Translations under genes and position numbers: made by a program
Shown: positions 39,315 to 42,653 of the stretch, in pieces
Layout: each line of letters starts with the position of its first letter
How positions within the stretch are numbered: position 1 is the first letter of the stretch
The notes under the pieces: generated by a model
Told to the model about the DNA's origin: nothing
Database searches by the model: none
What the model saw: the letters and a program-made list of their open reading frames with translations, nothing else
Assembly (NCBI RefSeq): GCF_014195505.1
Contig: NZ_JACIBV010000001.1
Span: forward strand, 186,001 to 250,000
Reading direction: 5' to 3'
Length of the DNA: 64,000 bases
Origin: Nonomuraea dietziae
Lineage (GTDB): Bacteria; Actinomycetota; Actinomycetes; Streptosporangiales; Streptosporangiaceae

Positions 39315-39727
39315 CGCCCGGCCGGTCGCCGGGACTCGCCGAGATCCCCGACGATCCGGGATCTTGGCGAAAAAGGCTCGTCTGCCCCTGGGGCGCAGGG
39401 TGACCCGGATGAGGGAAGGTTCGCGCAGGTCAAGGGCCACAAGGGAGCGTGGAGGCGGTGCCGCCCGCCGCCGGGCAGCCGTCCAGGGGCCGGCAGATGG
39501 CGGAAAAACCGCGATTGCTGGCAGTTTGGGCACTGTCGGATCAGCCCCGCCATGGTTTATTTTCTGGACGGACACGGCTTGAGGAGGAAGGACGCTCTGA
39601 TCCGCGGCGACGCCGCACGCGACGCGCCTGCACGAGCCCAGGGGGAGCCTGCGCAGGTGGCGCGGAAGGGGTGACGCCTCTGACGCGTGACGCACACGAC
39701 TCGATCATTATGTTGCGGGGGCCGAGG
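39315..39727. other. Intergenic, 413 bases, with one inverted repeat
   Basis: TCGCCGAGATCCC (39336-39348) and GGGATCTTGGCGA (39358-39370) pair at 12 of 13 positions, 22 bases after the WYL stop; a U-less terminator or operator. The rest of the stretch shows nothing coding. Confidence 0.5.
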
Positions 39728-40714
39728 ATGCTCGAGGCTCTTGGCTTGGACACTCTGGCCGAGAACACCTACCGACTTCTCCTGACGAACAACGATCTCG
39801 ACATCGAGGGGATCGCCCGAGAGCTGGCCGTCTCTCCTGACGAGATCCGCCTGGCACTTGACCGGCTGGCCGAGCTCGCCCTGCTGCGCCCCTCATGGGA
39901 GTCGCCGGGCACGCTGCGTCCCGTCCAACCCGACGTCGGCCTGCAGTTGCTCCTCGAGCGGCAGCAGGCGGAGCTGCTGCGCCAGCAGCACCAGCTGGCG
40001 GAGAGCAGGACCGCGATCAGCCAGCTCGTCAGCGAGTACTCGGGGCCTGGCATGAGTGGTCCGAGCTGCGAGCCGCTGCGGGGCATGGACGCCATCCAGG
40101 CCAGGATCGAGCAGCTGGCGTCACGTGCCACGGCCGAGGTCGCGACCTTCATGCCGGGCGGCCCGCAGGACGCCGAGCTGATCAAGGCCGCGATGCTCAT
40201 CGACCAGCAGGTGCTCGAGCGCGGCGTGGCCATCAGGACCATCGCGCTCGACAGCGCGCACCGTCATCCCGGCACCCTGGCCTACCTCCGGTGGCTGACC
40301 GAGGCGGGCGCGCAGGTGCGCACCGCGCCCGCGCTCCCGTTGCGCATGCTCATCTACGACCGGCGGGTCGCCCTGCTGCCCATCGACCCGCAGCACAGCG
40401 CGGCAGGAGCGGTGCAGGTCACCGATCGCGGGACGCTGACGGCCGTGCTCGCGCTGTTCGAGCAGTTCTGGGCGAGCGCCGCCCCGCTGGACGCCGAGCC
40501 CGCGGGGCCCGCGGGGGACGACCCCGGCCTCAGCCGCCAGGAGCGCGAGCTGCTCAGGTTACTCATGGCCGGGCTCACCGACGAGGGCGCCGGCCGTCAG
40601 CTCGGGCTCTCGCCGCGGACCATCAGGCGGATGATGGCCGACATCATGAAGCGCCTCGACGCCCGCAGCCGCTTCGAGGCCGGTGCCCGCGCCGCGGAGA
40701 GGAAATGGATCTGA
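39728..40714 (+). CDS. TrmB/LuxR-like helix-turn-helix regulator
   Basis: A 328-residue regulator of a kind common in actinomycetes. The N-terminal part (LGLDTLAENTYRLLLTNNDL, IARELAVSPDEIRLALDRLA) is a TrmB-like winged helix; a middle sensor domain of about 170 residues resembles the phospholipase-D-like fold of TrmB sensors (ERGVAIRTIALDSAHRHPGT, PLRMLIYDRRVALLPIDPQ); the C-terminal 65 residues are a LuxR-type HTH (LSRQERELLRLLMAGLTDEG, LGLSPRTIRRMMADIMKRLD). GGGGG stands about eight bases before the ATG at 39728. Convergent with the 113-residue protein and peptide genes, its possible partners. Confidence 0.88.
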   Translation: MLEALGLDTLAENTYRLLLTNNDLDIEGIARELAVSPDEIRLALDRLAELALLRPSWESPGTLRPVQPDVGLQLLLERQQAELLRQQHQLAESRTAISQLVSEYSGPGMSGPSCEPLRGMDAIQARIEQLASRATAEVATFMPGGPQDAELIKAAMLIDQQVLERGVAIRTIALDSAHRHPGTLAYLRWLTEAGAQVRTAPALPLRMLIYDRRVALLPIDPQHSAAGAVQVTDRGTLTAVLALFEQFWASAAPLDAEPAGPAGDDPGLSRQERELLRLLMAGLTDEGAGRQLGLSPRTIRRMMADIMKRLDARSRFEAGARAAERKWI

Positions 40715-40744: not shown

Positions 40745-41086
40745 CTACCTGAGATCTGTGCGGGGTGGCGGCCTGAACATCATCGCGTCCAGCGCGAGGA
40801 CGATCAGGTCCGCGCTCTGATGGGCGAGCGTCCAGCCGGCGAACTCGCCCTGGGTGTCGAGGATCCTGCTGATCGTGACGAACGCCGTGTCCTCGGCGTC
40901 CGCGAGGCAGCCCGAGACCAGGAAGAGCACGAGCGAGACCCCCTCCTGGTCGCTGCGGAGCCACGCGTGCTCGAGGCCCGAGCCCCCGGTCCTGGTCGCC
41001 TGGCGGAGTGACTCACGCAGCAGGTCCTGAGCCACAGGGGAGACGCCACACCCGGTGGCCAGCAGGCGGGTGGTGATCACATACAT
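40745..41086 (-). CDS. Conserved-looking 113-residue protein, unknown function
   Basis: A 113-residue protein without signal peptide or membrane span. N-terminal MYVITTRLLATGCGVSPVAQ is followed by an amphipathic helix, LVLFLVSGCLADAEDTAFVT with strands, and GWTLAHQSADLIVLALDAMM at the end; the alternating pattern suggests a small alpha/beta fold. AAGGAG precedes the ATG. It is 31 bases downstream of the 46-residue secreted peptide on the same strand and converges on the TrmB/LuxR-like regulator. I do not recognise a family with assigned function. Confidence 0.75.
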   Translation of the reverse strand: MYVITTRLLATGCGVSPVAQDLLRESLRQATRTGGSGLEHAWLRSDQEGVSLVLFLVSGCLADAEDTAFVTISRILDTQGEFAGWTLAHQSADLIVLALDAMMFRPPPRTDLR

Positions 41087-41117: not shown

Positions 41118-41258
41118 TCAGCCCCAGATGTTGCCGTCGGTTATCACCTCGCCGGTGCCGGGGTCGGGCTCGACCGCGTCGGCCAGGGCCGGCCCGCCTC
41201 CCGTGACGAGCGTGAACACCGCTGCCAGGACCACTCCGGCGCGAGCCAACGGCTTCAT
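41118..41258 (-). CDS. 46-residue secreted peptide
   Basis: A small gene starting ATG 41258 with GAGGGAG in good Shine-Dalgarno position. The product has a clear Sec signal peptide, MKPLARAGVVLAAVFTLVT then GGGPALADA, so cleavage after ALA near residue 27 would release about 19 acidic residues (DAVEPDPGTGEVITDGNIWG). Too short for most gene finders. It precedes the 113-residue gene by 31 bases. The single tryptophan and closing NIWG are distinctive. Could be a signalling peptide or a small envelope protein; function unknown, no database was consulted. Confidence 0.8.
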   Translation of the reverse strand: MKPLARAGVVLAAVFTLVTGGGPALADAVEPDPGTGEVITDGNIWG

Positions 41259-41561
41259 GCGCACTCCCTCGTCCGTTGCTCCATGTCGATGGGGCAAGTC
41301 TCGTCACAGCCGCCTGCGCGCCGGAAGCAGGACCGGCGTCCTCTTGCGGCCTGGTCCTCATGCGGCCAGCCCTGCCGCCGGGGCTCCGCGCTCCGCCGCC
41401 GTGCTCGCCCGGCCTCTCGCTGGCCGGATCCCGCCGTGGCCGCATGTTGCCAGCCGCCCGAGGCCCGCGAGCCCTTCCCCGGGGCTCGTCTCCTGATGAG
41501 ATAGGCCGCATCGGCCCTTCCCCGCGACCCCGCAGCGCGAACACCTCGAGGAGATGATGGC
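41259..41561. other. Divergent promoter region, about 300 bases
   Basis: Lies between the divergent secreted-peptide and GlxA/AraC genes. It is GC-rich, with open shadow frames but no recognisable protein or convincing dyad. It must contain both promoters. CGAGGAGA at 41547-41554 is the Shine-Dalgarno for the GTG at 41562. Confidence 0.5.
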
Positions 41562-42653
41562 GTGATCAGATCTGTCTCCGCATCCCGATCCCACTCCCGC
41601 ACCTGCGTGCGACCGGACGACCGTCGCGGGCCTGACCTGAGGAGCGCCGCACCACCGGCGCCCTTCCGCAGCGTGGTCGCCTACGTCATGCCAGGCGCGA
41701 GCTCGTTCGGGCTCAGCGTGGTGGCCAACATGTTCGTCGACCGTACGGCCATGGGCCTGCCCGCCTTCGACCTCACCGTCTGCGGCGACGACCTCGGTTG
41801 TCTGAGGACCGACATCGGCCTGGTCCTGCAGGTGGAGCACCGCCCTGAGGTGATGAAGGGCGCCGACCTGGTGATCCTGCTGCCCAGCGACAGCAGGCCG
41901 CTCAGGCTGCGCCGGCCGACCAGGGAGGCGATCACGGCCGCCCACCGCCGCGGCGCGATCGTCGCCGCGTACGACACAGGCACGTTCCTCCTGGCCGACA
42001 CCGGTCTGCTCGCCGGCCGCAGGGCCACCACGGACTGGTCACTGGCCGGGCAGCTGGCCGAACGGCACCCCGAGATCGACGTGCAGTCGGAGTCGCTGTA
42101 CGTCGACGAGGGCCGGCTCGTGACGGGCGCGGGCGCCGCCGCGGGCATGGACATGCTCCTCCACCTGCTGCGCCGCGAGCACGGCACCTTCGTCTCCACC
42201 ACCGTGGCGAGCGAGGCCATGGTGACCTCGCGCAGGGAGAGCGGCCAGGTGTACTACGTGCCCGCACCGGCGGGTCAGGCCACGCAGTGCGACACCGACG
42301 ACCACGGTGACGCCCGCCTCGCCGATGTGCTCGCCTGGGCCGCCGCCCGGCTCGAACAGCGGCTGTCGGTGACGGATCTGGCCAGGCACGCGTTGATGAG
42401 CCCCCGCACCTTCGCCCGCCACTTCCGGGCCGCGATGGGCACGACCCCGCACGCCTGGCTGCGCGACCAGCGGCTCGACCGGGCCGAGGAGCTGCTGGAG
42501 ACCACCGATCTGCCGATCCGGACGGTCGCGCAGAAGGTGGGGTTCCGTTCGGACGGCGTCCTGCGCGACCAGTTCATGAAGCGGCACGGTGTCTCTCCTC
42601 GCGCCTACCGCCACGCTCACCACCGGCGCAGCCCTTGGCGGACCGGCTCGTGA
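41562..42653 (+). CDS. GlxA-type AraC family transcriptional regulator
   Basis: A 363-residue regulator. Residues 35-215 are a DJ-1/PfpI-like amidotransferase fold (VVAYVMPGASSFGLSVVANM, AIVAAYDTGTFLLADTGLLA, VTGAGAAAGMDMLLHLLRRE) in which the cysteine nucleophile position reads AYDTGTF, so it is a sensor rather than an enzyme. Residues 255-355 are the double AraC HTH (LSVTDLARHALMSPRTFARH, LPIRTVAQKVGFRSDGVLRD). GTG start with CGAGGAGA upstream. Divergent from the peptide unit and followed by the convergent DUF418 gene. Target unknown; the divergent peptide gene is a candidate. Confidence 0.92.
   Translation: MIRSVSASRSHSRTCVRPDDRRGPDLRSAAPPAPFRSVVAYVMPGASSFGLSVVANMFVDRTAMGLPAFDLTVCGDDLGCLRTDIGLVLQVEHRPEVMKGADLVILLPSDSRPLRLRRPTREAITAAHRRGAIVAAYDTGTFLLADTGLLAGRRATTDWSLAGQLAERHPEIDVQSESLYVDEGRLVTGAGAAAGMDMLLHLLRREHGTFVSTTVASEAMVTSRRESGQVYYVPAPAGQATQCDTDDHGDARLADVLAWAAARLEQRLSVTDLARHALMSPRTFARHFRAAMGTTPHAWLRDQRLDRAEELLETTDLPIRTVAQKVGFRSDGVLRDQFMKRHGVSPRAYRHAHHRRSPWRTGS

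Follow-up and report, generated by a model that had tools for sequence, protein, structure and literature searches.

In Streptomyces, gamma-butyrolactones act as diffusible small-molecule signals controlling antibiotic clusters, a system of the AfsA/ArpA families with no peptide gene. Fungal alpha-factor-type precursors carry a signal peptide followed by several copies of a short peptide with variable spacers, and the mature peptides of the RRNPP group are short, linear and often C-terminal, as in XIP and PapR. RRNPP and Rgg-SHP systems place the genes for a communication pro-peptide and its intracellular receptor side by side, according to PMC10075063. The permease BldK imports a peptide of 655 Da that is presumed to be a signal, with the suggestion that the peptide may vary between strains (PMC9640686); in Streptomyces coelicolor, the BldK-imported oligopeptide is treated as a quorum-sensing signal tied to development and antibiotic production (PMC11303876).

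Here we describe a locus in the window (the whole 64-kb stretch of DNA analysed) at which a small secreted pro-peptide gene, a 113-aa partner gene and a regulator gene lie together. Secreted peptides with a tryptophan (W) motif in the tail or in repeats, which we call W-peptides, apparently form a large family not described before. No such system was found in the open-access literature, covered as titles and abstract starts with core strings included; most subscription papers fall outside that scope.

The peptide gene and its neighbours in the window

The original prediction was of an unlisted secreted-peptide gene, assigned to no strand. The gene is real and occupies the minus-strand frame from 41258 down to 41118, which encodes the 46-aa sequence MKPLARAGVVLAAVFTLVTGGGPALADAVEPDPGTGEVITDGNIWG (Table 1). 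Read by eye, the peptide combines a K/R n-region with a hydrophobic core, and cleavage at one of two AxA sites, ALA or ADA, would leave a mature tail of 18 or 20 aa, not 19 as first proposed; the predicted Shine-Dalgarno sequence is present. The 113-aa gene lies on the same strand after a gap of exactly 31 bases, as predicted, and the regulator converges with it across 30 bases.

Table 1. Features of the window and W-precursors in plasmid copies
Feature	Position	Strand	Basis or remark
Secreted pro-peptide gene, 46 aa, tail DGNIWG	41118..41258	minus	sequence and synteny
Sec-type signal peptide, residues 1-28 (cut after ADA) or 1-26 (after ALA)	41175..41258	minus	by eye
Inferred mature core pentapeptide GNIWG (W-3 to W+1)	41121..41135	minus	repeat-precursor boundaries; same GNIWG in L248
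Shine-Dalgarno GAGGGAG	41264..41270	minus	5 bases before ATG
Imperfect palindrome, possible operator	41276..41297	minus	17 bp upstream of peptide ATG
113-aa partner, predicted ferredoxin-like fold	40745..41086	minus	model and profile comparison
Regulator: TrmB-like N-terminal HTH (weak match), middle domain, LuxR (GerE) HTH	~39671..40714	plus	
Divergent AraC/DJ-1 (FtrA-like) regulator	41562..42653	plus	neighbour outside the conserved module
S. yangpuensis, W-precursor ...DDLGWQ			annotated
S. europaeiscabiei, W-precursor ...NTTGWQ			annotated
NBC_00557, W-precursor ...DDDHGWQ			annotated
HUAS CX7, W-precursor ...DDVTWGG			annotated; beside BTAD/SARP gene
NBC_00012, W-precursor GFGW x3			annotated
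NBC_01708, WP_329212364.1, GAGWD x6	L272:7786-8112	minus	~1.7 kb from regulator, beyond GNAT gene
S. clavuligerus pCLA1, DLPWT x2	L276:4591-4812	minus	unannotated secreted-looking frame beside regulator relative

The detection rule used here (a signal-like N-terminus, a Shine-Dalgarno sequence and a W tail or W repeats) matches four further frames in the window, so one match alone means little. We judge the peptide gene to be real because of synteny and the recurrent tail described below, and a chance frame was ruled out by synteny and core conservation. Direct searches with the 46-aa sequence told little, conservation being limited to about five residues: matches were weak and mostly in longer frames, and 297 genomes of the family yielded no clear orthologue, the best other match (E 4.4e-4) lying inside a 495-aa frame. 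The frame might itself be a decayed or chance member of a system that is real elsewhere, as its single core, its unusual convergent rather than divergent layout, its lack of a close orthologue and the four other rule matches would suggest. We regard this as highly improbable, given that the Shine-Dalgarno sequence, the signal, the spacing to the 113-aa gene and the GNIWG tail (shared with L248) are all intact, and that the regulator frame and the 113-aa frame, with its conserved His40, are open. No operator common to the peptide and regulator promoters was found in the window (8 shared 14-mers, against 1-10 in ten shuffles), the palindrome has no matching copy upstream of the regulator there, and no obvious biosynthetic cluster lies within the inspected 36-47 kb of the window.

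The start of the regulator is uncertain; homology begins near residue 16-20. Its Pfam match to GerE (PF00196; 39.7 bits against a cut-off of 23.5, E 3.8e-10) bears out the predicted LuxR HTH, as the layout does the predicted convergence. The match to TrmB (PF01978) is weak and below cut-off (13.5 bits against 25.6, E 0.067); relatives reach 24.1 bits (L091) and, above the cut-off, 31.5 bits (L047, E 1.6e-7). Since the similarity spans the N-terminal helix-turn-helix and no sensor domain, the TrmB-like sensor that had also been proposed is not shown. Pfam scans of eight regulators found GerE, TrmB and other HTH families, with no TPR repeats and no autoinducer-binding family among the matches.

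In three genomes (G582, G610 and G213), a close set of regulators (E 3e-74 or better, 44-49% identity) stands apart from distant paralogues (E 4e-43 or worse, 27-38% identity). This gap closes in larger samples, where E values run through 1e-64, 1e-57, 1e-51 and 1e-48 among the matches listed, and the regulator classes used below are therefore E-value bins. The window's own genome holds one close copy, that of the window, and eight distant ones (E 4e-33 or worse); genomes of another family, f20, hold 1 to 16 regulators of this family each among the matches listed, and relatives at E<=1e-20 occur in 119 of 296 genomes of the class. Close regulator matches with one internal TGA were seen at G582:C1:4334240-4335256 and in G734, G711, G699 and G439, and may represent decayed copies, sequencing errors or matches running past a natural stop. 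At L230 (G582:C1:4406500-4420000), three TrmB-like/LuxR matches fall within 3 kb, beside a secreted precursor with DSTW x5. The distant paralogue at L047:4938-10044 (Streptomyces sp. NBC_01669) adjoins a 1268-aa frame that by eye resembles a subtilisin-type (S8) protease, and it is speculation that such a protease could process precursors. In the window's genome, a 56-aa secreted-looking frame at L049:2817-2987 (plus strand) flanks a distant paralogue and has a repeated FSD motif without a W core.

The 113-aa protein is predicted to adopt a ferredoxin-like fold, and no specific family is assigned. A model built from 52 sequences (pLDDT 91, pTM 0.77) has a beta-alpha-beta-beta-alpha-beta core and aligns over 104 residues with the designed ferredoxin-fold protein 2mq8 (VIA Z 10.3, rmsd 3.9); a single-sequence model was not usable (pLDDT 40). 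The fold search returned generic ferredoxin-like matches only. Pfam and NCBIfam gave nothing above cut-off for the family, with no Pfam match better than E 0.03 in 29 members, and a sequence search of solved structures gave no match better than E 0.29. His40 is invariant in the 52 sequences and is kept in the window. Matches were found in 12 of 297 family genomes with the single sequence, in 51 of 345 order genomes with an 11-row profile (weak and drifted matches counted in), and in 33 of 394 class genomes with a 29-row profile, whose matches at E<1e-6 all fall in the window's own family or f20 (genomes of 6-10 Mb). At L095, L098, L101 and L103, the domain forms the start of a longer regulator-like protein. 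Pfam places a MarR-type HTH and a ROK segment in L095 and L101 (ROK above cut-off in L101 only), and fusion to such frames supports a regulatory or ligand-binding role.

Conservation of the module

We read 61 loci around matches to the 113-aa profile and kept 55, from two families; six (L096, L105, L109, L113, L116 and L126), where the profile had drifted into other ferredoxin-like families, were left out of the counts. At 44 of the 55 loci, phmmer with P0003 finds a regulator relative no more than 1 kb away, in every case at E 2e-64 or better; it is divergent in 42 and convergent in the window and L121. At 30 of the 55, the automatic rule picks out a secreted peptide with W repeats or a W tail that is encoded on the same strand no more than 1 kb away. 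One of these, L164, looks false; reading added five more within 1 kb (L091, L108, L158, L160 and L167), and L112, L118 and L123 have a W-peptide 2.1-2.3 kb off, on the far side of the regulator. Regulator and W-peptide are both present at 22 loci and at least one of them at 52. Up to 1 kb from 113-aa relatives (109 kb in all) the rule matched 33 times; more than 2.5 kb away (354 kb) it matched 12 times.

Tails at the 113-aa loci include GAGWQ, DDSGWQSDDSGWQ, DVTWGG, GFDWG x3, GFSWG and DMIWG, and further TTAWE, DMGWQ, TTGWD, VIGWD, DNNGWD and others. At L248, in f20, the tail GNIWGP accompanies a 113-family gene (E 1.1e-14) and a regulator; L283 has GNIWA beside two regulators, and L198 has GIIWD with both partners. 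The co-occurrence on which the original prediction staked its case was thus found, for the peptide type with the 113-aa neighbour and the TrmB/LuxR-like gene, in distant genera and another family, and for the NIWG tail itself at L248. Confinement to close strains, named in advance as the mark of a chance frame, applies to the exact 46-aa sequence only; the architecture and the core motif are conserved.

The regulator side was surveyed at 79 distinct loci in 36 of 41 f20 genomes (29 automatic and 60 picked, with 10 duplicates removed; the 60 were picked among the matches listed, in rough E-value order). Within 1.2 kb of these regulators (189 kb) the rule found 21 multi-copy matches, compared with none in 305 kb of distal DNA, and 18 of the 21 were judged genuine by eye (L255, L256 and L312 were dropped). 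Fourteen of the 18 repeat precursors are at the 60 loci with a regulator E above 1e-50, where cores include EPSWE x3-4, DNNWP x3-6, DSGWT x3, DTGWT x6, DLVWD x4, DPSWT x4 and others. Tail-type matches alone are noisy, with 21 near (189 kb) against 14 far (305 kb). Any automatic match occurs at 37 of the 79 loci, some of them false, and none at 42. Twelve distant places in G582 and G610 gave four repeated-core secreted precursors (DSGWG x2, DSGWG x3, DSTW x5 and DVGWN x4). Among 30 fetched loci (E<1e-55, 200 family genomes, window included; some cut by contig ends), 15 have a 113-aa gene or W-peptide within about 1.5 kb. About half of the sampled regulators have no nearby peptide. Seven loci read in f19 and f21 (L345, L354-L356, L358, L360 and L361) had no convincing W-peptide, and among the loci sampled convincing ones occur in two families only.

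As an accessory, the 113-aa protein accompanies close relatives of the window regulator: among distinct f20 loci, 9 of the 19 with regulator E<1e-50 have a 113-family gene and none of the 60 with a weaker regulator match does, which makes regulator plus precursor the minimal unit. As far as sequence goes, these counts establish the gene architecture, its conservation and the adjacency of regulator and precursor.

A tblastn search with the regulator found 126 plasmid records, 118 of them from Streptomyces. A W-precursor lies at most 1.8 kb from the regulator in seven of the eight plasmid regions read, six being annotated as 'hypothetical protein'; none was found in the NBC_01643 region. The profile detects a 113-family frame in six of the eight regions (not in NBC_01643 or S. 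clavuligerus), although a plasmid search with a single Streptomyces-type family member had no match; in HUAS CX7 this frame and the annotated one are on opposite strands. The S. europaeiscabiei copy borders YcaO, MFS and ABC-F genes, the NBC_00557 copy a ketosynthase gene and the HUAS CX7 copy ATP-grasp and MFS genes, so control of biosynthetic clusters is plausible.

Such neighbours would also suit peptides that are themselves effectors (short secreted antimicrobials, metallophores or RiPP-like modified peptides), in which case the 113-aa protein would confer immunity or modify the peptide and the regulator would be a cluster-situated one. Multi-core precursors, typical of some RiPPs, and the side-by-side, one-strand placement of peptide and 113-aa genes at the 30 rule-matched loci fit this reading as well. 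We consider it unlikely: the precursors carry a Sec-type signal instead of a cytosolic leader, reading of the seven annotated regions showed no modification enzyme shared by them within 5 kb, and none of the 60 loci with a more distant regulator has a 113-aa gene, among them 14 with repeat precursors.

The pentapeptide core

Repeat precursors allow copies of the core to be compared within one protein. In 18 precursors, copies sharing the triplet from W-2 to W were identical at W-3 in 112 of 112 pairs (1.00) and at W+1 in 105 of 112 (0.94); just outside, in the same pairs, identity was 0.35 at W-4 and 0.43 at W+2. Synonymous codon differences between copies were present in 21 of the 112 pairs at W-3 and 25 of the 112 at W+1. 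The precursors were chosen by eye, W-3 and W+1 were not used by the selection rule, and copy pairs within one precursor are not independent; in a whole-core comparison, three of the five positions are fixed by the selection of copies. Judged by these comparisons, the pentapeptide is the selected unit, under purifying selection with sharp borders. Whole-precursor dN/dS is uneven, at 0.3-0.4 in three and 0.6-0.8 in three of the seven usable pairs and above 1 in L087/L088; an eighth pair, L118/L123, was left out (wrong frame).

Across 68 regulator-precursor pairs (73 automatic pairs, with five dropped and four corrected by eye), D or G occupies W-3 in 55 cases, G occupies W-1 in 36, and G, Q or D occupies W+1 in 53. 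The more alike two regulators are, the more alike are their cores (Mantel r 0.33, 0 of 5000 permutations), and this is so both for the 43 regulators at E<1e-50 (r 0.43, 0 of 5000) and for the other 25 (r 0.32, 15 of 5000). Such a correlation is predicted by ligand-receptor pairing, and common descent alone could give the same.

A signal-bearing peptide gene that adjoins a cytoplasmic regulator might also serve to report on export or on the envelope, with unexported or mislocalised precursor sensed in the cytoplasm by the regulator or the 113-aa protein and no extracellular signalling. That arrangement would leave unexplained both the up to six identical, sharp-bordered cores in one precursor and the different cores at different regulators, and we find it quite improbable. 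Of the signalling or envelope-sensing module originally proposed, the conserved module stands and its envelope-sensing option found no support; signalling is what we infer.

A candidate peptide pheromone and its relation to described systems

Our preferred explanation, at a probability of roughly 0.6, is a peptide pheromone that acts between cells or back on the producer and is detected by the neighbouring regulator. The pro-peptide would be exported by Sec and cut by extracellular proteases to a linear pentapeptide of the form x-x-x-W-x, in the window GNIWG, perhaps with some flanking residues still attached. A general oligopeptide importer would then bring the peptide back into the cell; within the module, no gene for an importer was seen. 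On binding the peptide, the adjacent TrmB-like/LuxR regulator would set expression of the pro-peptide operon and its neighbours, in several copies a biosynthetic cluster or SARP activator. The 113-aa partner, where present, may bind peptide or regulator and tune the response.

The W-peptide family has the look of a private chemical language among soil bacteria that make antibiotics. More tentatively, and at somewhat less than even odds, it may be an extensive pentapeptide language of Streptomyces and related actinomycetes, produced from single- or multi-copy Sec precursors, in which each dialect has its own regulator that gates antibiotic clusters and SARP activators, some of the peptides perhaps being BldK-type imports. 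Peptide signalling in Streptomyces has been suspected from the BldK permease, and a paired class of precursors would make it testable. If the pheromone reading is right, synthetic five-residue peptides could be tried as a means of switching on silent antibiotic clusters, regulator-peptide pairs could be used as orthogonal gene switches, and the precursors, multi-copy like those of alpha-factor, would be unusual for bacteria and be paired with a receptor of an unfamiliar type.

As is proposed for the W-peptides, the BldK signal is a short extracellular oligopeptide imported by an oligopeptide permease, and the passages of PMC9640686 and PMC11303876 cited here do not name its precursor gene. A link between BldK and the W-peptides is speculation. 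The module differs from LuxI/LuxR sensing of acyl-homoserine lactones in that the eight regulators scanned lack an autoinducer-binding domain match. It would resemble gamma-butyrolactone signalling in placing antibiotic clusters of the same bacteria under a diffusible signal, here a peptide. As in fungal alpha-factor-type precursors, a short peptide is present in multiple copies after a signal peptide, but the hosts are bacterial, the units are pentapeptides and a transcription factor probably takes the place of the GPCR. As in RRNPP and Rgg-SHP systems of Firmicutes, the regulator gene adjoins a small secreted pro-peptide gene; in contrast to them, the regulator combines a TrmB-like HTH with a LuxR HTH and has no TPR match in eight regulators, the precursors often carry 2-6 cores, a ferredoxin-like partner stands beside some, and the hosts are actinobacterial. 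With no TPR match we do not file the module as an RRNPP member, though RRNPP/Rgg is its closest working analogy.
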